DNA of 39,326 bases from an uncultured bacterium (GTDB taxonomy: Bacteria; Bacillota_I; Bacilli_A; RF39; UBA660): positions 1 to 39,326 of the forward strand of contig CASFOW010000082.1 in assembly GCA_949296705.1 (NCBI GenBank). The letters are read 5' to 3'. How positions within the stretch are numbered: the stretch's first letter is position 1; the number at the start of each line of letters is the position of its first letter. The notes beneath the pieces were generated by a model. The model was not told the origin of the DNA, searched no databases, and saw only the letters and a program-made list of their open reading frames with translations. The position numbers and the translations under genes were made by a program. Shown piece after piece: positions 27,694 through 34,167 of this stretch.

Positions 27694-28134
27694 ATGGAAA
27701 TTGTCAATCGAGTAGCTAGACATGATTATTTCATCGAAGAAGAATATGAGTGTGGAATAGTTTTGACTGGTACGGAAATTAAATCTATTCGTTTAGGAAA
27801 AGCGAATATTAAAGATAGTTATGCAGTGATTAAGAATGGTGAAATATTTTTATTAAATATGTTTATTAGTCATTATAAAGAAGGAAATATTTTTAATCAT
27901 GAAGAAACAAGAACGAGAAAACTATTATTACATCGCTCAGAAATCTTAAAATTGAATGATAAAGTTCGCTTAGAAGGATATACGTTAATTCCTTTAAAGA
28001 TTTATTTTGTGAAGGGAAAAGCTAAGTTATTATTAGGCGTTTGTAAGGGAAAGAAAAATTACGATAAACGTGAGGCTTTAAAACAAAAAGATATCAGGCG
28101 TCAAGTTGAAAAAGATTTAAAAAATAGATATTAA
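27694..28134 (+). CDS. smpB: SsrA-binding protein SmpB
   Basis: 146 residues; binds the tRNA-like end of tmRNA and places it in the ribosomal A site. Seen: [26 protein letters not shown], the core [39 protein letters not shown], and the basic C-terminal tail ([25 protein letters not shown]), which monitors the empty mRNA channel. ATG 27694 follows capA by 7 bp. ssrA lies 1.6 kb downstream on the same strand, separated by the convergent ClpX-like gene. Confidence 0.98.
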
Positions 28135-28137
28135 ACA

Positions 28138-28175
28138 AAAATAGTCAAGGTTACTGTGGCCTTGATTATTTTTTT
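28138..28175. terminator. Bidirectional terminator between smpB and the ClpX-like gene
   Basis: AATAGTCAAGG (28139-28149 region) pairs with CCTTGATTATT (28160-28170) with one mismatch, followed by a T run. The minus-strand gene's stop lies in the 3' arm, so the hairpin serves both convergent genes. Confidence 0.8.
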
Positions 28176-29602
28176 AAGGTATATACTTTATTGTCTTCTA
28201 AAGTTTCTTGAGATACGATTGCTTCACTGAAACGGTTCTGATTCTTCTTTTTTAATAGTTCAAATTCTAAATCGATTAGTGAAGACGCAACTAGTCGTTT
28301 CAGACTTCTGGCTCCGCTATTTAATTCTCTACTTTGTGCGATAATTTCTTGGATATAGCTTTGATCCCAACGTAAATTTACATGGAATTCTTTTTGAATT
28401 CTTGCTTGTTCTAAAAGAAGAGGGCTAATTTTAGAGTGTAAAAGAATATTGGCTAAGTCTTCGTCAGTTAATTGATTTAAGAAGAATACGTTACTCATTC
28501 TTCCAATAAATTCGGGCATTAATCCATAGTTGATTAATTCTTGATTGGTGTATTTATCTTTATTTTTTGTAGATAAATTATTTTGAATAAAACCGAGGCT
28601 TTTTCTCTTTTCTTTTTCTAAGTCTTCAAAGGCTCCACCACATAAGATACTCATCAGACTAGTATCTATGGTGATTTCTACTTCTGGTGCTACTTTTACA
28701 CTATATTCATGGCCTTCTATTAGTTTTAAAAGGGATGGTTGTGGATTGATTTCTTGATCATGATTTCTAGCCAGTTTATCGATTTCGTCAATAAACAAAA
28801 TTCCATTTTCTGCTTGCTCGACATCCTTAAAGGCATTAAAATAAGTTCTTCTTAGAATATCATCGATATCTTTTCCGACATAGCCAGCTGAGGATAAGTC
28901 TGGAGCAGAATAATTAGTAAAAGGAATAGCTAAGTAGTCGGCAATGATGTTAAGAATTTCTGTTTTTCCACAACCAGTTGGTCCGATTAATAGGCCTTTT
29001 TTTATTTCTTGTGGATTACTAGTTCGATAATTCATAGCTAGTAGGGTAATAATTCCTTTTAAATGTTCGTCTTGTCCAAATATTCTCTCTCTTACATATG
29101 CTTCTAATTCTTCAACGTCAATATCGATTCTAATATTATTATTTTCGTAGTTAGAGATTATGATGTTAATATCTTGCTCTGTTTTTTTATCGGTATCTTG
29201 ATTATCTTTTTCTTCTAAGTTTGTTGACTCTATTTTTTTGGCATGTAAAAGTTCGCTTAATTCTTGTGTTGACATGGGAGAAATTTCAATATGATTTTCT
29301 GTGTGATTAGTGGTTCCTAAGTATACTTTTTGACTAGCGTCGTCGAAATATTCCTCCATGCAAAGTTCGATATTATTACAGGAAAACTTTTCTAATAAAT
29401 CTTTGTCGTCGATTGGATAATAGTAACATAACTCCTCTTTTGTTTTCATTAAGGTAATGGTATCCGCTTTGAAATAGGTTTGATCTTTAGTTTGGAAGCA
29501 ATTGCCATAATTGTGTCCAATGATTGCTTTTGTAGGTTGAAAGAGATATATTTCATCTTGAAGAAATTGTTTTTTCATTAGTATTGCTACTTGTTTTGTC
29601 AT
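28166..29602 (-). CDS. ClpX-like AAA+ unfoldase with an unusual N-terminal domain
   Basis: 478 residues. The C-terminal ~320 are a ClpX/HslU-type AAA+ module: Walker A GPTGCGKT (207-214), pore loop GYVG (240-243), Walker B ILFIDEID (268-275), CGGAF (321-325), arginine finger in PEFIGR (363-368), sensor 2 GAR (430-432). An LGF triplet (336-338) sits where ClpX has its IGF loop, which docks onto ClpP. Unlike ClpX there is no four-Cys zinc domain: residues 1-150 are of unknown type. The RKH-loop region before CGGAF is shortened. It lies between smpB and ssrA, on the opposite strand, under its own promoter. A role in unfolding tmRNA-tagged proteins is inference from family and position; a second, standard ClpX may exist elsewhere. 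Confidence 0.82.
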   Translation of the reverse strand: MTKQVAILMKKQFLQDEIYLFQPTKAIIGHNYGNCFQTKDQTYFKADTITLMKTKEELCYYYPIDDKDLLEKFSCNNIELCMEEYFDDASQKVYLGTTNHTENHIEISPMSTQELSELLHAKKIESTNLEEKDNQDTDKKTEQDINIIISNYENNNIRIDIDVEELEAYVRERIFGQDEHLKGIITLLAMNYRTSNPQEIKKGLLIGPTGCGKTEILNIIADYLAIPFTNYSAPDLSSAGYVGKDIDDILRRTYFNAFKDVEQAENGILFIDEIDKLARNHDQEINPQPSLLKLIEGHEYSVKVAPEVEITIDTSLMSILCGGAFEDLEKEKRKSLGFIQNNLSTKNKDKYTNQELINYGLMPEFIGRMSNVFFLNQLTDEDLANILLHSKISPLLLEQARIQKEFHVNLRWDQSYIQEIIAQSRELNSGARSLKRLVASSLIDLEFELLKKKNQNRFSEAIVSQETLEDNKVYTLKK

Positions 29603-29704: not shown

Positions 29705-30056
29705 GGGGATGTTCAGGTTTCGACAGGATCAGCTGCGCTTAAACGGCAAGTAGATGGCAATCTTAAAATGCGTCAGTTAAAATAACTGGAAACAAATATC
29801 AAATGGCTTACGCTGCTTAATTAGCATATAGTGTAAGGCTCTTTTAAAAACTTTACCTGTTGGTTTTTATAAAGGGCTCGATTTTAACAGGTTATATTAT
29901 CTCTTTGTTTCGGAGAGGTAATGAATTTTAGAAACTAGCTAATATAGTGTTTGTTGGCTAACTTCTATATTAGTGAATTTACTTAGTCAACTAAACTTGT
30001 AGATGTTTTTGCCTCGCTGATTTTGGACAGGAGTTCGATTCTCCTCATCTCCACCA
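29705..30056 (+). ncRNA. ssrA: Transfer-messenger RNA
   Basis: 352-nt one-piece tmRNA. The 5' end GGGGATG pairs with CATCTCC near the 3' end, followed by encoded ACCA (CCA at 30054-30056). The T arm GGACAGGAGTTCGATTCTCC and the 5' D-like GTTCAGGTTTCGACAGG are standard. The resume codon is GGA at 29788, in the ATAACTG context used by Bacillus tmRNA, giving tag GNKYQMAYAA and TAA at 29818-29820. The tag is short (10 residues) and ends AYAA rather than the common ALAA. Pseudoknot-forming sequences fill 29830-30000. The 3' end is intact although mobile DNA lies directly downstream. Confidence 0.97.
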
Positions 30057-30588: not shown

Positions 30589-32519
<1,931 letters not shown>

Positions 32520-32580
32520 TAACAAACGTACACGTTTTGTTGAAATATAATTTCAATGAAAGTGGGAAAAGTTTGGTTAA

Positions 32581-32617
32581 TAGATACAATAATAAATAGT
32601 ATTTGTTATTGTATCTA
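32581..32617. repeat. Long inverted repeat upstream of oriT
   Basis: TAGATACAATAATAAATA (32581-32598) and TATTTGTTATTGTATCTA (32600-32617) are inverse over 18 bp with one T/G exception and a single central base. It lies 63 bp after the recombinase stop. It may be a terminator-like structure without a T run, or a protein site of the transfer origin. Confidence 0.75.
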
Positions 32618-32680
32618 TATCTTACGAAAGGTTTAACTATTACGGAGTTTTAGTTATTACTGAAGTAAGATAAACGGATT

Positions 32681-32746
32681 CTAAGGTGTCCTTAGCTCCC
32701 ACATCTTGTTAGAATGACAAGATGTCTAGGGAGTTATACATCTTGT
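32681..32746 (+). other. oriT: Predicted oriT of MobV/pMV158 type
   Basis: CTCCC (32696-32700), ACATCTTGT (32701-32709), loop, ACAAGATGT (32717-32725), CTA, GGGAG (32729-32733), then TTAT and a third copy ACATCTTGT (32738-32746). The pMV158 oriT has the same order: an outer and an inner inverted repeat, then G/TTAT and a third copy of the inner half-repeat. By analogy the nick falls between G32733 and T32734. A further CTAAGG/CCTTAG hairpin occupies 32681-32695. The relaxase gene starts 36 bp downstream. Confidence 0.8.
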
Positions 32747-32781
32747 CTTAACTATCCAAGATACTATTTTAGGGGGAATAT

Positions 32782-34167
32782 ATGATTGAAGAACTATCTT
32801 ATTCATTCCATGTTGGTAATGATAAAAATAAAACAAGTAAGGCCAAACAAATTGCTAAAGAAAGACCTACAAACTTTAATAATAATGCTATTCAGAATGG
32901 TATTCAGTTATCAAAAGTAAATCATCATAATTTGAGAATATATGAAAATAATCCTGAACTTATTTATACAATTAAAGGAAGTAATAATCTTGTTAATGAT
33001 ACGAAAAAATTATATTTAGAATTATTTGAAGAATCAAGAATTAATTATAATAATAAACAAACCCGTGATGATAGAAAAATAGACAACTATTTTAATAAAA
33101 TAGCAAATGATAATAAACACGATTTAGCCGTTGAGATTATTATTGAACTTGGTAATATGTATTATTGGTCTGATAAAACGATGGAAGAAAAATATAAAAT
33201 GGTAAGCGTGTTTGAAAAACAAGTGATTGATTTAGAAAAACTTATCCCATCATTTAAAGTAGCAAATGCAACTATTCATTTTGATGAATCATCTCCACAC
33301 TTACATATAGTTGGTGTACCATTTAAAGAGAATTGTAAAACTGGTATGAATAGACAAGTTGGAAAGTCTGATGTATTTAATGTAGAATCATTAAAAGATA
33401 TTCAAAAAGAATTAAGAGAAAGTTGTATCAAAGAATTTAATAGAGTTTATAATCTCAATATGGAATTAAAAGAAAAAGAACAAGGTAGAAATCAAGATTA
33501 TCGTGTTAGTCAAATGAAAGATTATGATATTTTTCAAAAAAATTATAATAAACAACAAAAGAAAATTCAAAAAGTAAATAGTAAAACTGAAGTTATAAAT
33601 GAAAAATCTAAAGATATTAAAGAAATTATAAATAATCTTAAACAACAACCATTAAATAAGAATAATTTACTTTTATCAAATGAAAATAAAGATAAAATAG
33701 TTAAATATATTGAAGATATAGAATCTAATAATAAAACTATAAAATCGTTAACTAATTATTCAGTATCATTAATGGATATTAAAAATGATTTAAATGATAA
33801 TTTAAATAAAATATATAAGTTAAGTAATGAAAATAAAGATCTTAAAGAAGAATTAAATAATAAGGATGAACTATTAGATGTAGCAGAAAAAAAGATAAAT
33901 AAATTACAACTAGATATATTTTCTTTAGAAGATAAATTAAGACAATGGAGATTAAGATTTAAAAAATTAGTTGATTATTTAAGAAATAAAGTATGTGGAT
34001 TATTTGGTAATAAAAATCAAGATATATATAAAGAAATAGTTGAAGATTTGCATGATAATGATTTTTTAACTAATGATGATTATAATAAGATACATATGAA
34101 AACTATTATAAAAGAAGTTAAAATTGATAAGGAACAAAAGAAAAAAGATGATGATTTTGAATTATAA
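32782..34167 (+). CDS. mobV: MobV (Mob/Pre) family relaxase
   Basis: 461 residues; nicks oriT and leads the strand into a recipient cell. Motif I is HNLR (49-52). Motif III is HFDESSPHLH (166-175), the His-rich metal site that defines Mob/Pre proteins. After about residue 240 the protein is a long charged coiled coil rich in Asn, Lys and Glu, with a basic segment near 390-410, and ends in a Lys/Asp tail. AGGGGGAATAT precedes ATG 32782. It lies directly after the predicted oriT, as in pMV158-type plasmids. No replication gene is present, so mobilisation of an integrated element is the likely role. Confidence 0.92.
   Translation: MIEELSYSFHVGNDKNKTSKAKQIAKERPTNFNNNAIQNGIQLSKVNHHNLRIYENNPELIYTIKGSNNLVNDTKKLYLELFEESRINYNNKQTRDDRKIDNYFNKIANDNKHDLAVEIIIELGNMYYWSDKTMEEKYKMVSVFEKQVIDLEKLIPSFKVANATIHFDESSPHLHIVGVPFKENCKTGMNRQVGKSDVFNVESLKDIQKELRESCIKEFNRVYNLNMELKEKEQGRNQDYRVSQMKDYDIFQKNYNKQQKKIQKVNSKTEVINEKSKDIKEIINNLKQQPLNKNNLLLSNENKDKIVKYIEDIESNNKTIKSLTNYSVSLMDIKNDLNDNLNKIYKLSNENKDLKEELNNKDELLDVAEKKINKLQLDIFSLEDKLRQWRLRFKKLVDYLRNKVCGLFGNKNQDIYKEIVEDLHDNDFLTNDDYNKIHMKTIIKEVKIDKEQKKKDDDFEL

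Follow-up and report, generated by a model that had tools for sequence, protein, structure and literature searches.

ClpX is normally a slow-changing regulator of protein turnover. Its pore-2 and RKH contacts are critical to ssrA recognition (PMC7652416). The nearest published parallel to the gene described here is ClpX3 of Myxococcus xanthus, a divergent, deletable ClpX paralog connected with heat tolerance that lacks the N-terminal cysteine domain and RKH, in a host that retains canonical ClpX1 and ClpX2 (PMC11423568). Among phage proteins, the ClpX-like family phrog_4339 has no function assigned and carries its ATPase part after a long N-terminal part, and the CbxX/CfqX/SpoVK-type ATPases are built on another AAA+ core, PF00004 with AAA_lid_6. 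In an uncultured bacterium of the GTDB family UBA660, we found a gene, P0001, that joins a ClpX-derived motor to a different N-terminal domain. The Tenericutes genome paper is silent on Clp, and our literature search for this combination gave nothing.

P0001 lies in a window of 39,326 nucleotides (contig CASFOW010000082.1). Its ORF is intact, starts with ATG and runs on the strand opposite to both smpB and ssrA. The features of the locus are as follows, with residues counted along P0001.

27694..28134, (+), smpB, a neighbour of P0001 judged to lie outside the system
28166..29602, (-), P0001, ClpX-derived AAA+ unfoldase gene, 478 aa, identified by its ORF and translation, a ClpX HMM and Foldseek
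28169..29116, (-), ClpX-type AAA+ module (large and small subdomains), residues 163-478
28307..28315, (-), sensor-2 GAR, residues 430-432
28499..28501, (-), arginine finger R368, invariant in alignment A2
28589..28597, (-), LGF triplet at the IGF-loop position, residues 336-338, putative ClpP docking
28664..28705, (-), site of the RKH loop in canonical ClpX, residues about 300-313; the loop is absent
28733..28774, (-), shortened pore-2 region LARNHDQEINPQPS, residues 277-290, without RDVSGEGVQQ
28784..28801, (-), Walker B ILFIDE, residues 268-273 (alignment A2)
28874..28885, (-), pore-1 loop GYVG, residues 240-243
28961..28984, (-), Walker A GPTGCGKT, residues 207-214 (alignment A2)
29117..29248, (-), charged linker, residues 119-162, AF2 pLDDT about 46-76 over most of it
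29249..29602, (-), N-terminal domain, residues 1-118, defined by profile A4 and AF2, without a Pfam or PDB match
29705..30056, (+), ssrA tmRNA with the tag GNKYQMAYAA, 184 bits, a neighbour of P0001 judged to lie outside the system
29788-29820, the tmRNA tag

We compared P0001 with canonical ClpX (TIGR00382 / NF003745) and found that the two share the AAA+ core fold, Walker A and B, GYVG, the arginine finger, the sensor-2 GAR and an xGF triplet, read as LGF in P0001, so that every core motif named in the original prediction was present. The identity to the ClpX core is about 30%. When the complete protein was modelled with AF2 (mean pLDDT 85), Foldseek returned ClpX chains in ClpXP complexes as the top matches of the model (6wrf, E 9e-27). 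However, the ClpX models cover just residues about 190-473 of P0001, and the scores are under half the cutoffs, with 177 bits against 359 for NF003745 and 157 against 371 for TIGR00382. The zinc-binding domain is absent, as had been claimed, with no zf-C4 Pfam match and no CxxC pair in P0001. The claimed absence of the RKH loop was likewise seen, and the motif occurs in 0/41 P0001 relatives examined compared with 9/9 canonical ClpX. The pore-2 region is also shortened, reading LARNHDQEINPQPS in P0001 and I.RKS.NPSITRDVSGEGVQQA in canonical ClpX.

In a tree built on the core, 20 canonical ClpX of several phyla grouped in one clade with short branches (SH-aLRT 100) and P0001 fell outside it, with the ClpX derivatives on long branches; in a second tree with 27 viral ClpX rows, 60 derivative rows lay on one side of a branch (98% SH-aLRT), both trees being quick searches with long branches. 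P0001 works with a motor like that of ClpX, but the cutoff, the zinc domain, the RKH loop and the clade all separate it from canonical ClpX. Like M. xanthus ClpX3, it has neither the cysteine domain nor RKH; in ClpX3, however, the N-terminal domain is described as missing, whereas that of P0001 is replaced, and a shared lineage is not indicated. The ATPase part of P0001 matches phrog_4339 at 1.8e-39, but its N-domain is unmatched there.

The region ahead of the motor had been described as about 150 residues of unknown type. No known domain was found in it, in agreement with that description, but it is really a folded domain (residues about 1-118) followed by a mostly low-confidence linker (119-162). 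The N-domain alone was modelled by AF2 with a pLDDT of 91.9 and a pTM of 0.84. It spans about 115 residues with the rough pattern YIA.LM.K...FLF.P...IEG..D....F.D..G.EY and is common to many ClpX derivatives, and a profile built from 26 rows recovered independent members outside the build set (E down to 1.7e-19). Profile A4 was present in 28/117 genomes of the family and in 55/193 genomes of the order; outside the family (296 class genomes), the sole match had E 4e-4 and lay in a 53-codon frame. Searches of the N-domain gave nothing convincing in Pfam and no match among PDB sequences, and its structural neighbours were too weak for use (Foldseek best E 0.75 in PDB and 0.11 in BFVD; VIA best Z 2.3 over 53 residues). 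A Pfam GtgE match to 1 of 25 N-domain members (2e-4) was taken as chance. P0001 is thus, as had been proposed, a ClpX-like unfoldase with a replaced N-terminal domain, and no family described in the libraries searched covers that domain, although a missing match is no proof that the fold is new.

The same N-domain also occurs on another motor. In one family genome (G073), it stands ahead of two CbxX/SpoVK-type AAA+ cores (L336:1964-3433 (-) and L337:1712-3160 (-)), and in another (G062), two N-domain copies without an AAA+ core lie downstream of aspS. Because the N-domain moves among different AAA+ motors, the simplest reading is that it binds substrates or adaptors, a role that we infer from its position and modularity. 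Its occurrence across genera and on a CbxX/SpoVK-type core is what would be expected of a modular recruiting domain.

We surveyed 117 genomes (116 genera) of the host's GTDB family; all genomes surveyed were drafts. The cutoff for canonical ClpX was reached in 0/117 of them compared with 10/14 controls. Class-wide, canonical ClpX was present in just 46/198 genomes, none of the 46 in the host family, indicating that its loss is common in the class. ClpX-core derivatives were detected in about 41 of the 117 family genomes, a figure tallied from the listed matches, at 47-236 bits, sometimes several per genome, most of the frames being about 450-850 aa long. Among the genomes surveyed, these derivatives were seen only in the host's family. 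Named relatives comprised uncultured Bacilli or Erysipelotrichaceae MAGs and Bacillales bacterium UBA5348. As regards a separate clpX and clpP in the host genome (a 1.58-Mb assembly, 95% complete), an NF003745 search found no second ClpX there, and a ClpP is encoded whose GMAAS and MIHQ motifs are the usual ones. The host also encodes ClpC (with an IGF loop), ClpB, FtsH and Lon, the Clp and FtsH identities being read from the sequence of their ORFs.

Outside the host species, full-length orthologs of P0001 (83-99% identity) were confined to three species of its genus. Against orthologs of 83-85% identity, the dN/dS of P0001 was 0.12-0.16; by part, in the window pairs, it was 0.23-0.28 for the N-domain and 0.07-0.13 for the core, and the neighbouring genes gave 0.04 (smpB) and 0.03 (rnr). 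P0001 is under purifying selection, yet evolves faster than its neighbours, and the purifying selection indicates a working gene and no chance ORF.

The original prediction had suggested that P0001 may be a machine dedicated to products that were tagged or rescued, and its location between smpB and ssrA, both of which it adjoins in the host genome, is indeed as claimed. The ssrA-side adjacency was also seen in G015, and in G001 and G013 the gene lies beside smpB on contigs that end short of ssrA. A scan of 56 ClpX-like loci, however, showed that such adjacency is confined to the window's genus and that the other relatives do not lie near smpB and ssrA, the recurrent site being hisS-aspS (these two genes recur beside ClpX-like loci in the family, at about 11 loci). 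Two L025-type relatives (L144 and L146) have smpB or ssrA 4-5 kb from the ClpX-like gene, but spacing of this kind is close to what chance would give (expectation within 5 kb, about 0.4; P(>=2) about 0.05) and both sit on a different tree branch from P0001. The tmRNA model matched 116/117 family genomes (99 over the cutoff), far beyond the about 41 with a ClpX-like gene, and where a P0001-type gene is lacking, smpB and ssrA are by default adjacent in the family, with 39-161 bp between them in many species. Tags end in -MAYAA or -MAFAA in members of the genus both with and without the gene; one sister species without it (G007) has a tag identical to that of the window and a smpB-ssrA gap of 160 bp. 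In other sister species, the gap holds an HD-type hydrolase-like ORF (G002 and G016) or a 152-aa exonuclease-like ORF (G005), both read from sequence; in the genus it is a changing gene slot (L108, L109 and L114) that is HD-hydrolase-like, exonuclease-like, ClpX-like or empty. The gene is conserved in relatives that sit elsewhere, an outcome that the original prediction had itself named as refuting it. Since, in addition, the tag and the adjacency persist without the gene, the gap varies and RKH is lost along with part of pore-2, the link of P0001 to tmRNA does not hold. Its position is a lineage-specific insertion and a local accident, and an unfoldase dedicated to tmRNA-tagged products is a very improbable reading. 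Tagged proteins are probably handled by ClpCP, Lon or FtsH. The least probable of the readings weighed here is that P0001 is a decaying or selfish accessory gene, the cargo of a mobile element or phage in a lineage whose genome is reduced. The patchy spread, the long branches, the split or core-less copies in G103 and G062 and a mobile element just past ssrA are in keeping with it, but P0001 is under purifying selection, the chromosomal hisS-aspS site is shared by many genera, the N-domain had no matches in the viral loci examined, and the family variants stand apart from viral ClpX in the tree. We rejected a phage origin of P0001 on the last two of these grounds.

With moderate confidence, we favour the reading that P0001 is a ClpX-derived hexameric unfoldase that probably docks on ClpP through LGF and chooses its substrates or adaptors through the N-domain, and that it is not a dedicated reader of the tmRNA tag. 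P0001 would form a hexameric ring in which the flexibly linked N-domains may capture particular substrates or adaptors; the GYVG pore-1 loops would then draw the polypeptide through the ring, and the LGF loops would dock onto the genome's ClpP, leading to degradation of the polypeptide. Docking is favoured by the near-invariance of xGF among 26 diverse relatives, where G337 is invariant and F338 is kept in at least 90% (alignment A2). P0001 might instead be a ClpP-independent remodelling ATPase whose N-domain picks complexes to unfold or disassemble, with xGF a relic or meant for another partner. Derivatives and ClpP occur independently of each other across the 117 genomes, as ClpP was not found in 5/41 genomes with a ClpX derivative and 9/76 without (Fisher p = 1), and several genomes in which no ClpP was detected retain xGF. 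Some relatives (the L013/L025 group, L321 and L322) are without xGF, and the N-domain also heads the CbxX/SpoVK-type AAA+ core, which to our knowledge is not a ClpP partner. Against this, the triplet aligned with IGF reads [ILVMT]G[FLI] in most relatives, which keep xGF or xG[LI] despite very fast divergence, the host genome encodes a typical ClpP, and the ClpP gaps in some genomes may reflect assembly incompleteness. Weighing the conservation of xGF against its loss in a few relatives and the ClpP-independent occurrence, we consider coupling to ClpP probable and remodelling independent of ClpP rather unlikely.

Across the host family, -AFA, -AFAA or -AYAA takes the place of -ALAA at the end of the tmRNA tag (the window and loci L037-L066 and L104-L114). 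These non-ALAA ends, in a family without canonical ClpX, suggest that another protease (Lon or ClpC) reads the tags, and raise the question of which protease reads -AFA and -AYAA in the host family. An altered tag in Mycoplasma reportedly accompanies a switch to Lon (Gur and Sauer 2008, cited in PMC11986505), a protease that the host genome also encodes. In the whole family no canonical copy of ClpX was found while ClpP and tmRNA are kept in most genomes, and the derivatives, present in about one third of the genomes, are more divergent among themselves than ClpX is across phyla. We see an even chance that this Bacilli family without ordinary ClpX has rapidly diversifying ClpX derivatives whose shared N-domain is an undescribed fold, serving as a portable recruiter of previously unknown substrates or adaptors for ClpX-like and CbxX/SpoVK-like unfoldases. 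That one N-domain sits on AAA+ motors of two kinds suggests a mode of substrate choice that is as yet undescribed.

Several further observations were made in the window and among the relatives. The mobile element past ssrA spans 30636-34167 and encodes a large serine recombinase and a Mob_Pre relaxase; tmRNA 3' ends are frequent insertion sites. Group II intron RNA matches lie at 335-2218 of the window (RF02005 at 335-551 and RF00029 at 2145-2218). A comparison of P0001 with known anti-phage defence proteins in PADLOC yielded only weak, generic AAA-domain matches, none full-length. Next to the CbxX/SpoVK-type ATPase gene of L337 is a gene for a Clp ATPase of the ClpC/ClpB type. There is also a second ClpX-like subgroup, which lacks the P0001-type N-domain and has a different helical N-terminus (L098 and L103); a conserved 117-aa partner gene (cluster c8) is adjacent to its members in L304, L309, L310 and L322 (G074, G093, G082 and G001, respectively), and G093 carries two copies in tandem. 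At the hisS-aspS site of G019 (L015), a ClpX-like protein has a truncated ImmA/IrrE (Peptidase_M78) N-terminus, and an 839-aa protein of G142 (L090) contains two tandem ClpX-like AAA+ modules. A genome of another family of the class (G419, family f10) gave eight ClpX-model matches, several of them to near-identical AAA frames of 575-717 aa, which suggests that it holds an expanded AAA+ family.
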